Below, piece by piece: positions 4,949-15,500 of a DNA stretch of 64,000 bases. Origin of the DNA: Thiohalorhabdus sp. Cl-TMA (GTDB lineage: Bacteria > Pseudomonadota > Gammaproteobacteria > Thiohalorhabdales > Thiohalorhabdaceae); NCBI RefSeq assembly GCF_041821045.1, contig NZ_JBGUAW010000008.1:62001-126000 (forward strand), given 5' to 3'. Below the pieces are notes generated by a model that saw only the letters and a program-made list of their open reading frames with translations, did no database searches and was not told where the DNA came from. The first letter of the stretch is position 1. Each line of letters begins with the position of its first letter. A program made the translations under genes and the position numbers.

Positions 4949-5644
4949 ATGAACGGGAACGCGGAAGCCCGGCCGTCCTCGGTGTACGTCTTCGAGGCCC
5001 CGGTGCGCCTCTGGCACTGGGTCAACGCCGCCGCTATCGTGGTGCTGGCCGTTTCCGGCTACTTCATCGGCAGTCCGCCCTTCGCCGGGCCGGGAGAGGC
5101 CAGCGACCACTATCTGATGGGGACCATTCGCTTCCTCCATTTCGCCGCCGGCTACGTGCTCGCCGTGGGCTTCCTGGGCAGGATCTACTGGGCCTTGGTC
5201 GGCAATCACCACGCTCGGCAGATGTTCCACCTGCCGCTGCGGAGCGCCTCCTGGTGGCGGGATTTCCGCTACGAGCTGCGCTGGTACGCCCTCCTGGAGC
5301 GCTCGCCCCGCAAGTTCGTGGGACACAATCCGCTGGCCCAGGCCTCCATGCTGGTGCTGTTCGTTCTGGGGACCGGCTTCATGATCCTCACCGGCTTCGC
5401 CCTCTACAGCGAGGGCACCGGCAAGGGCAGCTGGCAGGATGCCCTGTTCGGCTGGGTCATTCCGCTGCTCGGCGGCAGCCAGCCCACCCACACCCTCCAC
5501 CACCTGGGCATGTGGCTCATCGTGGCCTTCGTCATCGGCCACGTGTACGCGGCCATCCGCGAGGAGCTCCTGTCCCGGCAGAGCATGGTCAGCACCATGA
5601 TCAGCGGCTGGCGCACCTTCCGGGACGGAAAACCGCCGGAATAG
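4949..5644 (+). CDS. hupC: Ni/Fe-hydrogenase b-type cytochrome subunit
   Basis: A 231-residue integral membrane diheme cytochrome b of the HyaC/HupC family that passes electrons from HupS to quinone. It opens with the family stretch VRLWHWVNAAAIVVLAVSGYF. Several hydrophobic helices carry the histidines expected for heme, for example LHFAAGYV and LHHLGMWLIVAFVIGHVY. It lies 39 bases after hupL and has a GGGAGG ribosome site. It is the last protein gene of the structural operon and is followed by a GC-rich hairpin. Confidence 0.93.
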   Translation: MNGNAEARPSSVYVFEAPVRLWHWVNAAAIVVLAVSGYFIGSPPFAGPGEASDHYLMGTIRFLHFAAGYVLAVGFLGRIYWALVGNHHARQMFHLPLRSASWWRDFRYELRWYALLERSPRKFVGHNPLAQASMLVLFVLGTGFMILTGFALYSEGTGKGSWQDALFGWVIPLLGGSQPTHTLHHLGMWLIVAFVIGHVYAAIREELLSRQSMVSTMISGWRTFRDGKPPE

Positions 5645-5672
5645 CACCCGCCTCCACACAACCGGAGCCAAT

Positions 5673-5698
5673 GGCCCCGTCCGGCCCGGACCGGGGCC
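5673..5698 (+). terminator. GC-rich hairpin after hupC
   Basis: GGCCCCGTCCG pairs with CGGACCGGGGCC around a 3-base loop, about 11 bp with one bulge, followed by TCTCCGTTTCCC. It lies 28 bases after the hupC stop. The tail is not a clean T-run, so termination could be partial. Confidence 0.5.
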
Positions 5699-5794
5699 TC
5701 TCCGTTTCCCACCGATGTTCGCGCCCCCTTCCGGACAGACCGCCCAGGCACCGCTCCGGGCCGCCATTAGCCAATCTGGCCACAATTTGGTGCA

Positions 5795-5809
5795 AATGTA
5801 GCCATTGAC
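5795..5809. repeat. AATGTRGCCATTGAC element, copy 1
   Basis: AATGTAGCCATTGAC here differs at one base from AATGTGGCCATTGAC at 15629-15643. This copy is about 49 bp upstream of the candidate RNA promoter and the other about 71 bp upstream of the porin promoter. Both are in the same orientation. It may be a shared regulator site. Just before it lies a small palindrome, ATTTG-GTG-CAAAT (5785-5797). Confidence 0.45.
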
Positions 5810-5856: not shown

Positions 5857-5872
5857 TGGCATGGCACTCGCA
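5857..5872 (+). promoter_or_regulatory. Sigma-54-like promoter of the candidate RNA
   Basis: TGGCATGGCACTCGCA fits TGGCACG-N4-TTGCW with two differences and keeps the 10-bp GG-to-GC spacing. The predicted start is near 5883. There is no protein gene on this strand before 7074, but a strong terminator stands at 6093-6119. Confidence 0.55.
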
Positions 5873-5882
5873 TAGCCCTGCC

Positions 5883-6119
5883 GAGCCGCAGAACCCCGAT
5901 GGGTCCTTGCCTATGCACGGACTGGAATTGCCTGGGAAACCATCCGCACTCGGCAAACTCCAAGGAAGTGACGGGCTGAGCCATCAATTCCCTGGAACGG
6001 GAGCACCCTTCCGGGGGTGGCCGTGCCGTGGACGCCGGAGCCGGCGTCGAAGGCTTGAAGACCGCGTACCGAAGCTGGTGCCGTGGAAGTGCGGGCCGGG
6101 GGCAACCCGGCCCTTTTTT
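5883..6119 (+). ncRNA. Candidate sigma-54-driven small RNA (about 237 nt)
   Basis: A plus-strand transcription unit bounded by a sigma-54-like promoter and a strong intrinsic terminator, with no convincing gene inside. The interior can fold: a perfect hairpin lies at 6031-6048 (GACGCCG/CGGCGTC), with a CACCC/GGGTG stem just before it. I do not recognise a known RNA family. The unit sits between hupC and cynS. An alternative is that it encodes the 26-codon ORF at 5899-5979 (three cysteines near the start), but that has no ribosome site. A longer ORF over the region crosses the terminator and is not credible. A third possibility is that it is just a long hupC 3' end. Confidence 0.5.
6093..6119 (+). 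terminator. Strong intrinsic terminator of the candidate RNA
   Basis: GGGCCGGG (6093-6100) and CCCGGCCC (6106-6113) form a perfect 8-bp stem with loop GGCAA, followed directly by six T residues. The T-run is on the plus strand, so it does not serve cynS. Confidence 0.88.
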
Positions 6120-6142: not shown

Positions 6143-6172
6143 AAAAAAGCCGGCGAAGCGGACTTCGCCGGC
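6143..6172 (-). terminator. Intrinsic terminator of cynS
   Basis: On the minus strand GCCGGCGAAG and CTTCGCCGGC form a perfect 10-bp stem with a 4-base loop, followed by six T residues. It lies about 45 bases after the cynS stop. Confidence 0.9.
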
Positions 6173-6217: not shown

Positions 6218-6658
6218 TTACCAGATCTTGTAGGGCAGGAACTTGCCGTTCATGGTCACCACCACGCGGTCGCCCTTGGGGTCTTCCTGGCGGTCCACGT
6301 CCAGGGTGAAGTCGATGGCCGACATGATGCCGTCGCCGAACTTCTCGTGGATGACCTCCTTCATGGACGTTCCGTATACCTGCATGATCTCGTAAAAACG
6401 GTAGATCAGGGGATCGGTGGGCACGGTCTGGTCGGTCCCCTTCATGGGGCAGACAGCGAGCGCGTCCACCACCTCTCCGGAAAGTCCCAGGGCACCCGCG
6501 AGCCGCTCCCCGTATTCGCGCGGCATGCTGCTCTGGCCGAGGGCGGCGGCGGTCACGAAGACCGGATTGAGCCCCACCTCGCCGGCGAGCGTTTCCCAGG
6601 TCAGGCCCTTGTCGGCCTTGGCGGCCATGACGGCCTCGGTCATTGCCAGCTTATCCAT
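6218..6658 (-). CDS. cynS: Cyanase (cyanate hydratase)
   Basis: A 146-residue cyanase, which converts cyanate and bicarbonate to ammonia and CO2 through carbamate. The catalytic triad is intact: Arg87, Glu90 and Ser113, each offset by nine from E. coli Arg96, Glu99 and Ser122. The family signature runs through YRFYEIMQVYGTSMK and GDGIMSAIDF. The start MDKLAMTE gives the family's normal length; an upstream extension has no family match. It is monocistronic, with its own terminator and a sigma-54 promoter about 100 bases upstream. It is divergent from an ABC transporter that probably imports its substrate. Confidence 0.96.
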   Translation of the reverse strand: MDKLAMTEAVMAAKADKGLTWETLAGEVGLNPVFVTAAALGQSSMPREYGERLAGALGLSGEVVDALAVCPMKGTDQTVPTDPLIYRFYEIMQVYGTSMKEVIHEKFGDGIMSAIDFTLDVDRQEDPKGDRVVVTMNGKFLPYKIW

Positions 6659-6758
6659 GGCAGCGTCCTCTCCTTGCTTCCGCCCCTCCGAACCGCCCCG
6701 GACGGGCGAGCGGGTTGCCGTTTTCGGCCCGGTCGGCGAGCCGTTCCATCCCCTCGAT

Positions 6759-6774
6759 TGCACCTTCTGTGCCA
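6759..6774 (-). promoter_or_regulatory. Sigma-54 promoter of cynS
   Basis: The minus strand reads TGGCACAGAAGGTGCA, two differences from TGGCACG-N4-TTGCW, with exact 10-bp GG-to-GC spacing. The predicted start near 6748 gives a leader of about 90 bases. Confidence 0.78.
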
Positions 6775-6904
6775 TCCCCGCGAACGCGGCCCTAACCCGC
6801 CCAAAACCCCAATCTGGCTGGCAGCCCCAAAAGCCTCGCCGACGCCGTTTGCCCTGGAATCTTGCGCATCCCTCCCATGATCGCACCTGTCTGGTGCATA
6901 CACT

Positions 6905-7020: not shown

Positions 7021-7036
7021 TGGCACAATTGCTGCA
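7021..7036 (+). promoter_or_regulatory. Sigma-54 promoter of the ABC transporter operon
   Basis: TGGCACAATTGCTGCA, two differences from TGGCACG-N4-TTGCW, with exact 10-bp GG-to-GC spacing. The predicted start near 7047 is 27 bases before the ATG at 7074. An in-frame ATG at 7020 overlaps this promoter and is rejected as a start. Confidence 0.8.
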
Positions 7037-10168: not shown

Positions 10169-11752
10169 ATGAACCGCGGTAACGGCCACTGCGTCCAATC
10201 CGACTCCGAGATGCTGGTGCTGCGCGAGGCCTCCAAGCTGGTGGGCCACAGCCACCCACCCGGCTACGCCATCGATCGCATCCTGCGCCTGCTCTCCGAG
10301 CTGCTGGGGCTCAACCGCGGCCGGGTCCTGCTTCCCGAGCCGGAGACCGCCACCCTGCGCATCCAGTTCGCCTACGGACTCACGCCCCAGGAGCGGGCAC
10401 GCGGCGTCTACGGCCGCGGCGAGGGCATCACCGGCCAGGTAATGGAGACCAGCCAAGTGGGCCTGGTGCAGGACATCGACAACGAGCCCGGCTATCTGCG
10501 CCGCGCCGTGGACCGCTCCATCCTGCCCCCGGAAACGGTGGCCTACATCGCCGTGCCCATCCTCCTGGAGGAGGAAGTGGTGGGCGTACTGGCCGTGCAC
10601 CGCCTGCGGCACCGGGAGCGCCCTTTCCGGGCCGACCTCAACATCCTGGAGATCGTGGCCACCCTGATCGCCCAGATCCTGCGCCTCCACCATCTGATCT
10701 CCGAGTCCACCATCGAGCTCGCCGCGGAGACCGCCGTGGAGCCGAGCGTGGACGACACCGGTGCCGAGCATGGCCTCATCGGCACCAGCCGCGCCCTGCG
10801 CAAGGCCCTGCGCCAGGCCCGACACGTGGCCAACACCCGAGCCACGGTGATGCTCCTGGGCGAAACCGGCACCGGCAAGGAGAAATTCGCCCGCATGCTG
10901 CACGCGGCGAGCAACCGCCGCGACCAAGCCTTCGTGGCGCTCAATTGCGCGGCCATCCCGGAAGAGCTGCTGGAATCGGAGCTGTTCGGTCACGAGAAAG
11001 GCGCCTTCAGCGGTGCCGTGGCCACCAAGAGGGGGAAGTTCGAGCTGGCGGACGGCGGCACGCTGTTCCTGGACGAGCTCGCCGAGCTCGACCTGGACAT
11101 GCAGAGCAAGCTCCTCCGGGTCCTAGAGGAGCGCGTCGTCCACCGGGTCGGGGGGACCCGGGACATCCCCGTGGACGTCCGCATCGTCACCGCCACCCAC
11201 CAGGACCTGGCCGCGGCGGTGAACGGCGGCACCTTCCGGCTGGACCTCTACTACCGCCTCAATGTCTTCCCGGTGCACCTGCCCCCCTTGCGCGAGCGCA
11301 CGGAGGACATCCCGGCCTTGGCCCGCCATTTCCTGGCCTCCGCCAACGCCGAGTTCGACCGCGAGGTGGAGCTCGGCCAGGGCGTGCTCGACCGCCTGGC
11401 CAGCCAGAGCTGGCCGGGAAACGTGCGCCAGCTGGAGAACCTAATCCACCGGGCGGCCCTCATGGCGGAGGGCCCGCTGATCTCCGCGCGGCTGATGGAC
11501 ACCATCCTCGCCGAGGAGAGCCGGATCCACCACACCGGGACCTCCGGCGACGCCGCGCAGGCGGGCTCGCCCGGCCCGGGGCAGACCGCGGGCGGGGTGC
11601 GGCCCTACGCCCGGGTGGACCCCAACGAGGGCGCGCGCCTGCTCGCGGCGGTCCGTCAGTGCGGCGGCAACAAGACCCAGGCCGCCTTGATGCTCGGCCT
11701 GACGCCACGGCAGCTGCGCTATCGGCTGGAGAAGCTGGGGCTGGAGGCCTGA
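10169..11752 (+). CDS. NifA-like sigma-54-dependent transcriptional activator (GAF-AAA+-HTH)
   Basis: A 527-residue enhancer-binding protein. An N-terminal GAF sensor domain (about 25-175) precedes a short linker and the AAA+ domain (about 200-435). Walker A is GETGTGKE (231-238) and Walker [10 protein letters not shown] (296-304). The C-terminal Fis-type HTH is [20 protein letters not shown]. The sigma-54 contact loop reads GAFSGA (278-283) instead of the usual GAFTGA. AAGGAG at 10155-10160 supports the start. There is no receiver domain, so it should sense a ligand or partner protein through GAF, as NifA and FhlA do. It lies among seven sigma-54 promoters and is the obvious activator for some or all of them. 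Confidence 0.92.
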
Positions 11753-14873: not shown

Positions 14874-15428
14874 CTAGTCGGCCAGGCCGATCTCGGTGTT
14901 GACCGGATTGCGGAAGGTATTGGCCACCGGGGACCAGTAGTCGGCGTGGTGCACCAGATCCTCCAGCTCCTCGCGGCTCACGTCGCCGTCGAGATCCACC
15001 TTGATGCGGACGTCGGTGAAGCCGAGCCGCTTCTCCGACTGGTCCCCCGCCCCCCAGACGGAGGTCACGTTGACGTCGCCCTCCAGATAGAGCTCCAGCT
15101 TGGTGAGCGAAATGCCCCGAGCCACCGCGTTGGCATGGATGCCCACGGATATGCACGAGCCCAGTGCTGCCAAGGAGGCCTCCGAGGGGTTGGGCGCCGT
15201 GTCGTCGCCCAGCAGGTGCGGCGGCTCGTCGACGACGTGGGCGGGGAGGTCGCGGACATAGTTGAGATGCCGGAACCGGCCCTCGCAGACGGTGTGGTTC
15301 TTGAGGGTGGCCACCCGGGTGGGGTCCGCCTTGCCCTTGGCCACCAGCCCGTCCAGCCCGCCCTTGTCGATGGGCGCCAGGGGGCTGCCGGAGAGCGTGA
15401 CGGCGGCGGTTTCGGTGGGTTCGGACAT
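14874..15428 (-). CDS. OsmC family protein
   Basis: A 184-residue OsmC/Ohr-superfamily protein, a fold used for thiol-based reduction of hydroperoxides. The two cysteines expected for such chemistry are Cys48 (HTVCEG) and Cys92 (LGSCISVGIHANA), the second in the conserved helix. An N-terminal 20-residue extension is present. AGGAGGAG precedes the ATG. It is the first gene of a four-gene operon under a sigma-54 promoter. It may protect the redox partners of this operon, or act on a sulfur or peroxide intermediate; no specific substrate can be read from the sequence. Confidence 0.85.
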   Translation of the reverse strand: MSEPTETAAVTLSGSPLAPIDKGGLDGLVAKGKADPTRVATLKNHTVCEGRFRHLNYVRDLPAHVVDEPPHLLGDDTAPNPSEASLAALGSCISVGIHANAVARGISLTKLELYLEGDVNVTSVWGAGDQSEKRLGFTDVRIKVDLDGDVSREELEDLVHHADYWSPVANTFRNPVNTEIGLAD

Positions 15429-15483: not shown

Positions 15484-15500
15484 AGCAGGTCTCGTGCCAT
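15484..15500 (-). promoter_or_regulatory. Sigma-54 promoter of the osmC-like operon
   Basis: The minus strand reads TGGCACGAGACCTGCT, one difference from TGGCACG-N4-TTGCW, with exact spacing. The predicted start near 15473 is 45 bases before the start codon. Confidence 0.8.

Follow-up and report, generated by a model that had tools for sequence, protein, structure and literature searches.

A candidate NtrC/sigma-54-dependent small RNA between hupC and cynS in Thiohalorhabdus sp. Cl-TMA

The gap between hupC and cynS

In the window, that is, the whole 64,000-nucleotide stretch of Thiohalorhabdus sp. Cl-TMA DNA analysed here, a gap separates the hydrogenase gene hupC from cynS, which is involved in cyanate breakdown. 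This gap holds a predicted small RNA gene, and its features and flanking genes are as follows (positions are those of the window).

4949-5644, + strand: hupC, hydrogenase cytochrome b subunit (TIGR02125, above cut-off)
5778-5797, + strand: NtrC-type enhancer, predicted; a degenerate dyad GGCCACaatttGGTGCA (5778-5794) overlapping a palindrome ATTTGGTGCAAAT (5785-5797)
5857-5872, + strand: putative sigma-54 promoter TGGCATGGCACTCGCA; 10 of 12 consensus bases, GG and GC exactly 12 apart
5883-6119, + strand: predicted small RNA, 237 nt; it would begin 12 nt downstream of the -12 GC and end at the T run of the terminator, non-coding in six frames
6031-6048, + strand: internal hairpin GACGCCG-GAGC-CGGCGTC, from folding
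6093-6119, + strand: intrinsic terminator GGGCCGGGGGCAACCCGGCCC TTTTTT; 8 pairs, all G-C, loop of 5, six T
6149-6172, - strand: terminator of cynS, facing that of the small RNA
6218-6661, - strand: cynS, cyanase (TIGR00673, above cut-off)

The sigma-54 consensus used was TGGCACG-N4-TTGCW, with the GG and GC invariant. The pattern TGGCAYGNNNNTYGCW matches once in the window, against 0.07 expected, and seven times in the 3.74-Mb genome, while the reversed pattern is not found there, which bears out the sigma-54-like promoter that the sequence-only reading had proposed at this place. Two of the other genome matches also have an NtrC dyad upstream. From the position of the box, transcription is predicted to start at 5883. 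The same reading had described a strong terminator with an 8-bp stem and six T, and had argued that it does not belong to cynS. Both points hold, since the hairpin lies at 6093-6119 and cynS has a separate one on the minus strand (6172-6149); a similar hairpin with a T run also follows cynS in a congener. The two units thus converge, with their terminators about 30 nt apart. It had further credited hupC with a hairpin of its own, and one is indeed present at about 5672-5699, but it has no T run and was not scored as a terminator, leaving hupC without a clear terminator of its own.

The coding score of the unit ranges from -0.26 to -0.58 in six frames, compared with +0.30 to +0.50 for eleven neighbouring genes, in agreement with the earlier view that these 237 nt hold no credible gene. 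The internal stems mentioned by that reading were recovered as well. The 237-nt RNA folds with an energy of -110.4 kcal/mol (z -2.4 against shuffles, and -1.9 when the terminator is left out). We observed that the signal sits in the 5990-6090 part (z -2.7), where the 6031-6048 hairpin lies, while the first 107 nt give z -0.3, the 5' half showing no more structure than shuffled sequence. The better-than-shuffle folding (z about -2) stems from the 5990-6090 hairpins and the terminator. By sequence, the unit is thus well supported as a putative sigma-54-dependent, terminator-ended and non-coding gene.

An NtrC-type enhancer and the surrounding sigma-54 boxes

Upstream of the promoter, an NtrC-type half site TTGGTGCA is present at 5787-5794, 62 nt before the sigma-54 box of the small RNA. 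The dyad GGCCACaatttGGTGCA carries three mismatches, with one half perfect, and the spacer region has a GC content of 46%, compared with 67% across the window. If one mismatch is tolerated, ATTTGGTGCAAAT has a single further copy in the genome, located before the sigma-54 box of porin-glnK-amtB, in which the porin is TorF-type; the half site and the box are 63 nt apart there and 62 nt apart at the small RNA. The glnK-amtB operon is a classic NtrC target. The genome encodes NtrC (TIGR01818, 700 bits where the cut-off is 559), from a gene on the same contig about 183 kb from the small RNA, as well as sigma-54.

We then searched genome-wide for the composite pattern TTGGTGCA-N40-70-TGGCAYN6YGC. 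It has exactly three matches in the 3.74-Mb genome, at porin-glnK-amtB (spacer 63), at narK-nirB (spacer 50; a gene for a NarK-type transporter, with a nirB-like gene after it) and at the small RNA (spacer 62), of which only the narK-nirB match is independent, because the glnK and small RNA sites had partly guided the design of the pattern. No match was obtained with the reversed pattern, in the two congeners, in four same-size first-order Markov genomes or in 1.8 Mb of hupC/hydrogenase loci of other species. This genome-specific motif provides a first map of the NtrC targets of the organism. An NtrC-type site upstream of the sigma-54 box, as at NtrC/sigma-54 small RNAs, is thus predicted here for NtrC binding, and is common only to glnK-amtB and narK-nirB. 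An enhancer spaced as at glnK-amtB strengthens the small RNA reading beyond the evidence of the earlier note, and, as the same switch precedes two nitrogen-uptake operons, the small RNA is probably made under nitrogen shortage.

At narK-nirB (locus L162; box at 2691 and ATG at 2432, both on the - strand), we also observed a leader of about 230 nt with a terminator-like hairpin and a T run before the start codon. It has no Rfam match, and attenuation is possible there.

The small RNA lies within a stretch of five sigma-54 boxes in about 5.3 kb, between genes for hydrogen oxidation and genes for cyanate use. The further elements around it are listed below.

1701, - strand: sigma-54 box before a hydrogenase-maturation-protease-like gene, 11/12
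1978, + strand: sigma-54 box before hupS, 11/12
6759-6774, - strand: sigma-54 box of cynS, TGGCACAGAAGGTGCA, 10/12
6882-6898, no strand: NtrC-type dyad CGCACCtgtctGGTGCA between cynS and the transport operon, 1 mismatch to TGCACC-N5-GGTGCA
7021-7036, + strand: sigma-54 box of a nitrate/cyanate-type ABC transport operon, TGGCACAATTGCTGCA, 10/12
10169-11752, + strand: last gene of the transport operon, for a NifA-like sigma-54 activator (GAF-AAA-HTH by Pfam and NCBIfam) that scores under the nifA cut-off

The ABC transport operon is divergent from cynS and begins about 7074; cynS and the transport genes have a sigma-54/NtrC arrangement in common with the small RNA. The NifA-like activator is possibly a dedicated regulator of cyanate use. 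On the hydrogenase side, the strong boxes of the 1660-2060 region (11/12 each) are divergent. Another strong box (11/12), TGGCACGAGACCTGCT, is found at 15484-15499 on the - strand, some 70 nt ahead of the gene at 14874-15428.

Relatives and known small RNAs

Conservation in relatives was the check that the sequence-only reading had set for itself, and it failed as far as it could be run: 368 further genomes of the class (the two congeners and 366 others) yielded no copy of the small RNA. The DNA homologue search covered 55 relatives, 369 genomes of the class, plasmid records and, from other species, 80 hupC loci. The matches found elsewhere were 20-50-nt scraps of GC-rich stem or terminator and were rejected as homologues; the best one (E 7e-5, in genome G241) spans 31 nt only, and nothing in the sequence surrounding it points to a related RNA. 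Among the congeners, only G001 has cynS; there the gene is followed by its terminator and then by a protein-kinase-like gene, and by no small RNA. Since this congener is devoid of the hydrogenase locus and matches the large hydrogenase subunit only distantly, the absence there corresponds to a missing locus and not to an RNA lost at a conserved locus. The proposal of a sigma-54 small RNA therefore stands for the predicted promoter, enhancer, terminator and non-coding nature, but finds no copy in relatives.

The Rfam search, at gathering and relaxed thresholds, returned nothing credible for the small RNA, consistent with the earlier remark that it resembles no recognised one. The PrrB/RsmZ model (RF00166) matched positions 6017-6119 only weakly and in part, at 11.6 bits (E 3.6) where gathering requires 44, and some GGA motifs are present. 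An RsmZ-type Csr/Rsm sponge was rejected, as this score is far below gathering and the 9 GGA motifs are not above chance (6.9 in shuffles). A CrcZ-type decoy was rejected too, with 0 matches to the A-rich motif AANAANAA.

We compared the unit with three described RNAs. NrsZ of Pseudomonas aeruginosa is an intergenic RNA of about 226 nt, transcribed under nitrogen limitation through NtrB/C and RpoN, according to section 2.9 of PMC8395346. The same source attributes its function to the first 60 nt, which suffice, and describes it as highly conserved in Pseudomonas with ntrC and PA5126 as neighbours (PMC8395346). The likeness seen between NrsZ and the 237-nt RNA described here is one of predicted regulation; the Rfam search brought out no similarity to a known family, NrsZ adjoins ntrC whereas the present RNA lies between hupC and cynS, and NrsZ is conserved across Pseudomonas whereas the present RNA was found in one genome. 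In Pseudomonas stutzeri A1501, the non-coding RNA NfiR has NtrC sites and a predicted sigma-54 box and is induced when fixed nitrogen is lacking; it is 54 nt long, starts 29 bp after its box and depends on Hfq for its stability (PMC6606865). It thus shares with our candidate the NtrC sites and predicted sigma-54 box on a non-coding RNA, but differs in size (54 against 237 nt) and in its Hfq dependence, no Hfq being found in the present genome. Finally, CrcZ of Pseudomonas is presented in section 3.2 of PMC8395346 as an RpoN-dependent intergenic RNA of 407 nt, driven by CbrB and carrying A-rich Hfq-binding motifs. It is likewise intergenic, RpoN-type and in need of an enhancer-binding protein, but the small RNA here has none of its A-rich Hfq/Crc-binding motifs.

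Proposed role and alternative readings

The unit is probably an independent small RNA gene that belongs to the nitrogen-limitation regulon, is driven by NtrC and sigma-54 and most likely acts on mRNAs in trans through base pairing. Under nitrogen shortage, NtrC in its phosphorylated form would bind the GGTGCA site, which precedes the start by about 90 nt; the AT-rich spacer would loop, and sigma-54 RNA polymerase would transcribe from about 5883 to 6119. The weakly structured 5' half would most likely pair with mRNAs in trans, by analogy with the first 60 nt of NrsZ, while the stable 3' hairpins and the terminator would protect the RNA. The promoter, enhancer, terminator and non-coding nature are supported as predictions; transcription of the unit, binding of NtrC and not of a different activator, and action through pairing are inferred. 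The best reading is that it may work like NrsZ or NfiR, a likeness of mode that does not imply homology to either. Altogether, the computational case for an NtrC/sigma-54-regulated small RNA is convincing; it would be a regulator of a familiar type whose sequence is new, in a genome without detectable Hfq. A rough target scan scored ungapped pairing with 61 start regions, 57 of them called in the window and four belonging to nitrogen genes; the top scores were ordinary window genes paired with GC-rich stems, and the hup, cyn and nitrogen genes were unremarkable.

Other readings of the locus were considered. The small RNA could be switched on by a HupR/HoxA-like regulator of the hydrogenase cluster or by the NifA-like protein of the cyanate operon, the signal being hydrogen or cyanate and not general nitrogen shortage. 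Both activators are encoded within about 11 kb of the small RNA and two sigma-54 boxes, at 1978 (+) and 1701 (-), belong to the hup operon itself, yet ATTTGGTGCAAAT was not found in the hup promoter region while it occurs with the same spacing at glnK-amtB, making such an activator unlikely. The lack of a T run in the hairpin just after hupC would also fit a terminator that is the distant end of the hup operon, the preceding 450 nt being a long 3' untranslated region and the sigma-54 box a chance match. This seems quite improbable given how rare such sites are in the genome, with seven matches to the box pattern and three to the combination of box and enhancer.

The position of the unit relative to cynS suggests yet another role, as an antisense regulator of this gene through read-through or collision of the converging transcripts, whose terminators are so close together. 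However, the strong terminator would end the RNA before cynS, NtrC would induce both together, and in the pairing scan the complementarity to the cynS start was not unusual; we regard this role as very doubtful. As for a short mRNA encoding a tiny protein, for example from the 26-residue frame at 5899-5979, its ATG does lie 16 nt after the predicted start, but no Shine-Dalgarno sequence was seen upstream and the frame has a coding score of -0.17 against at least +0.30 in neighbouring genes, so that a protein-coding function is highly unlikely.

Hfq (PF17209) was not found in the three Thiohalorhabdus genomes (G000, the genome of the window, G001 and G002), two of them 99% complete, while the same search detected it in E. 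coli and others. Such an absence is unusual for Gammaproteobacteria, and it sets this genus, without detectable Hfq, apart from the Pseudomonas cases, which are linked to Hfq. The genome of the window encodes two ProQ/FinO-domain proteins, L168 (G000:C1:390897-391181) and L169 (G000:C9:110579-110728); no ProQ domain was detected in the two congeners, which are also without the small RNA. We tentatively raise the possibility, on which we place little weight, of a nitrogen-starvation small RNA in an Hfq-less lineage, which might work with a ProQ/FinO-domain protein or chaperone-free and couple nitrogen supply to hydrogen oxidation or cyanate use. In the literature compared here, NtrC/sigma-54 small RNAs are known from pseudomonads and tied there to Hfq. 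If true, an NtrC/sigma-54 small RNA in another gammaproteobacterial lineage, one without detectable Hfq, would point to independent recruitment of small RNAs by the nitrogen regulon and would offer a simple case of Hfq-free riboregulation.
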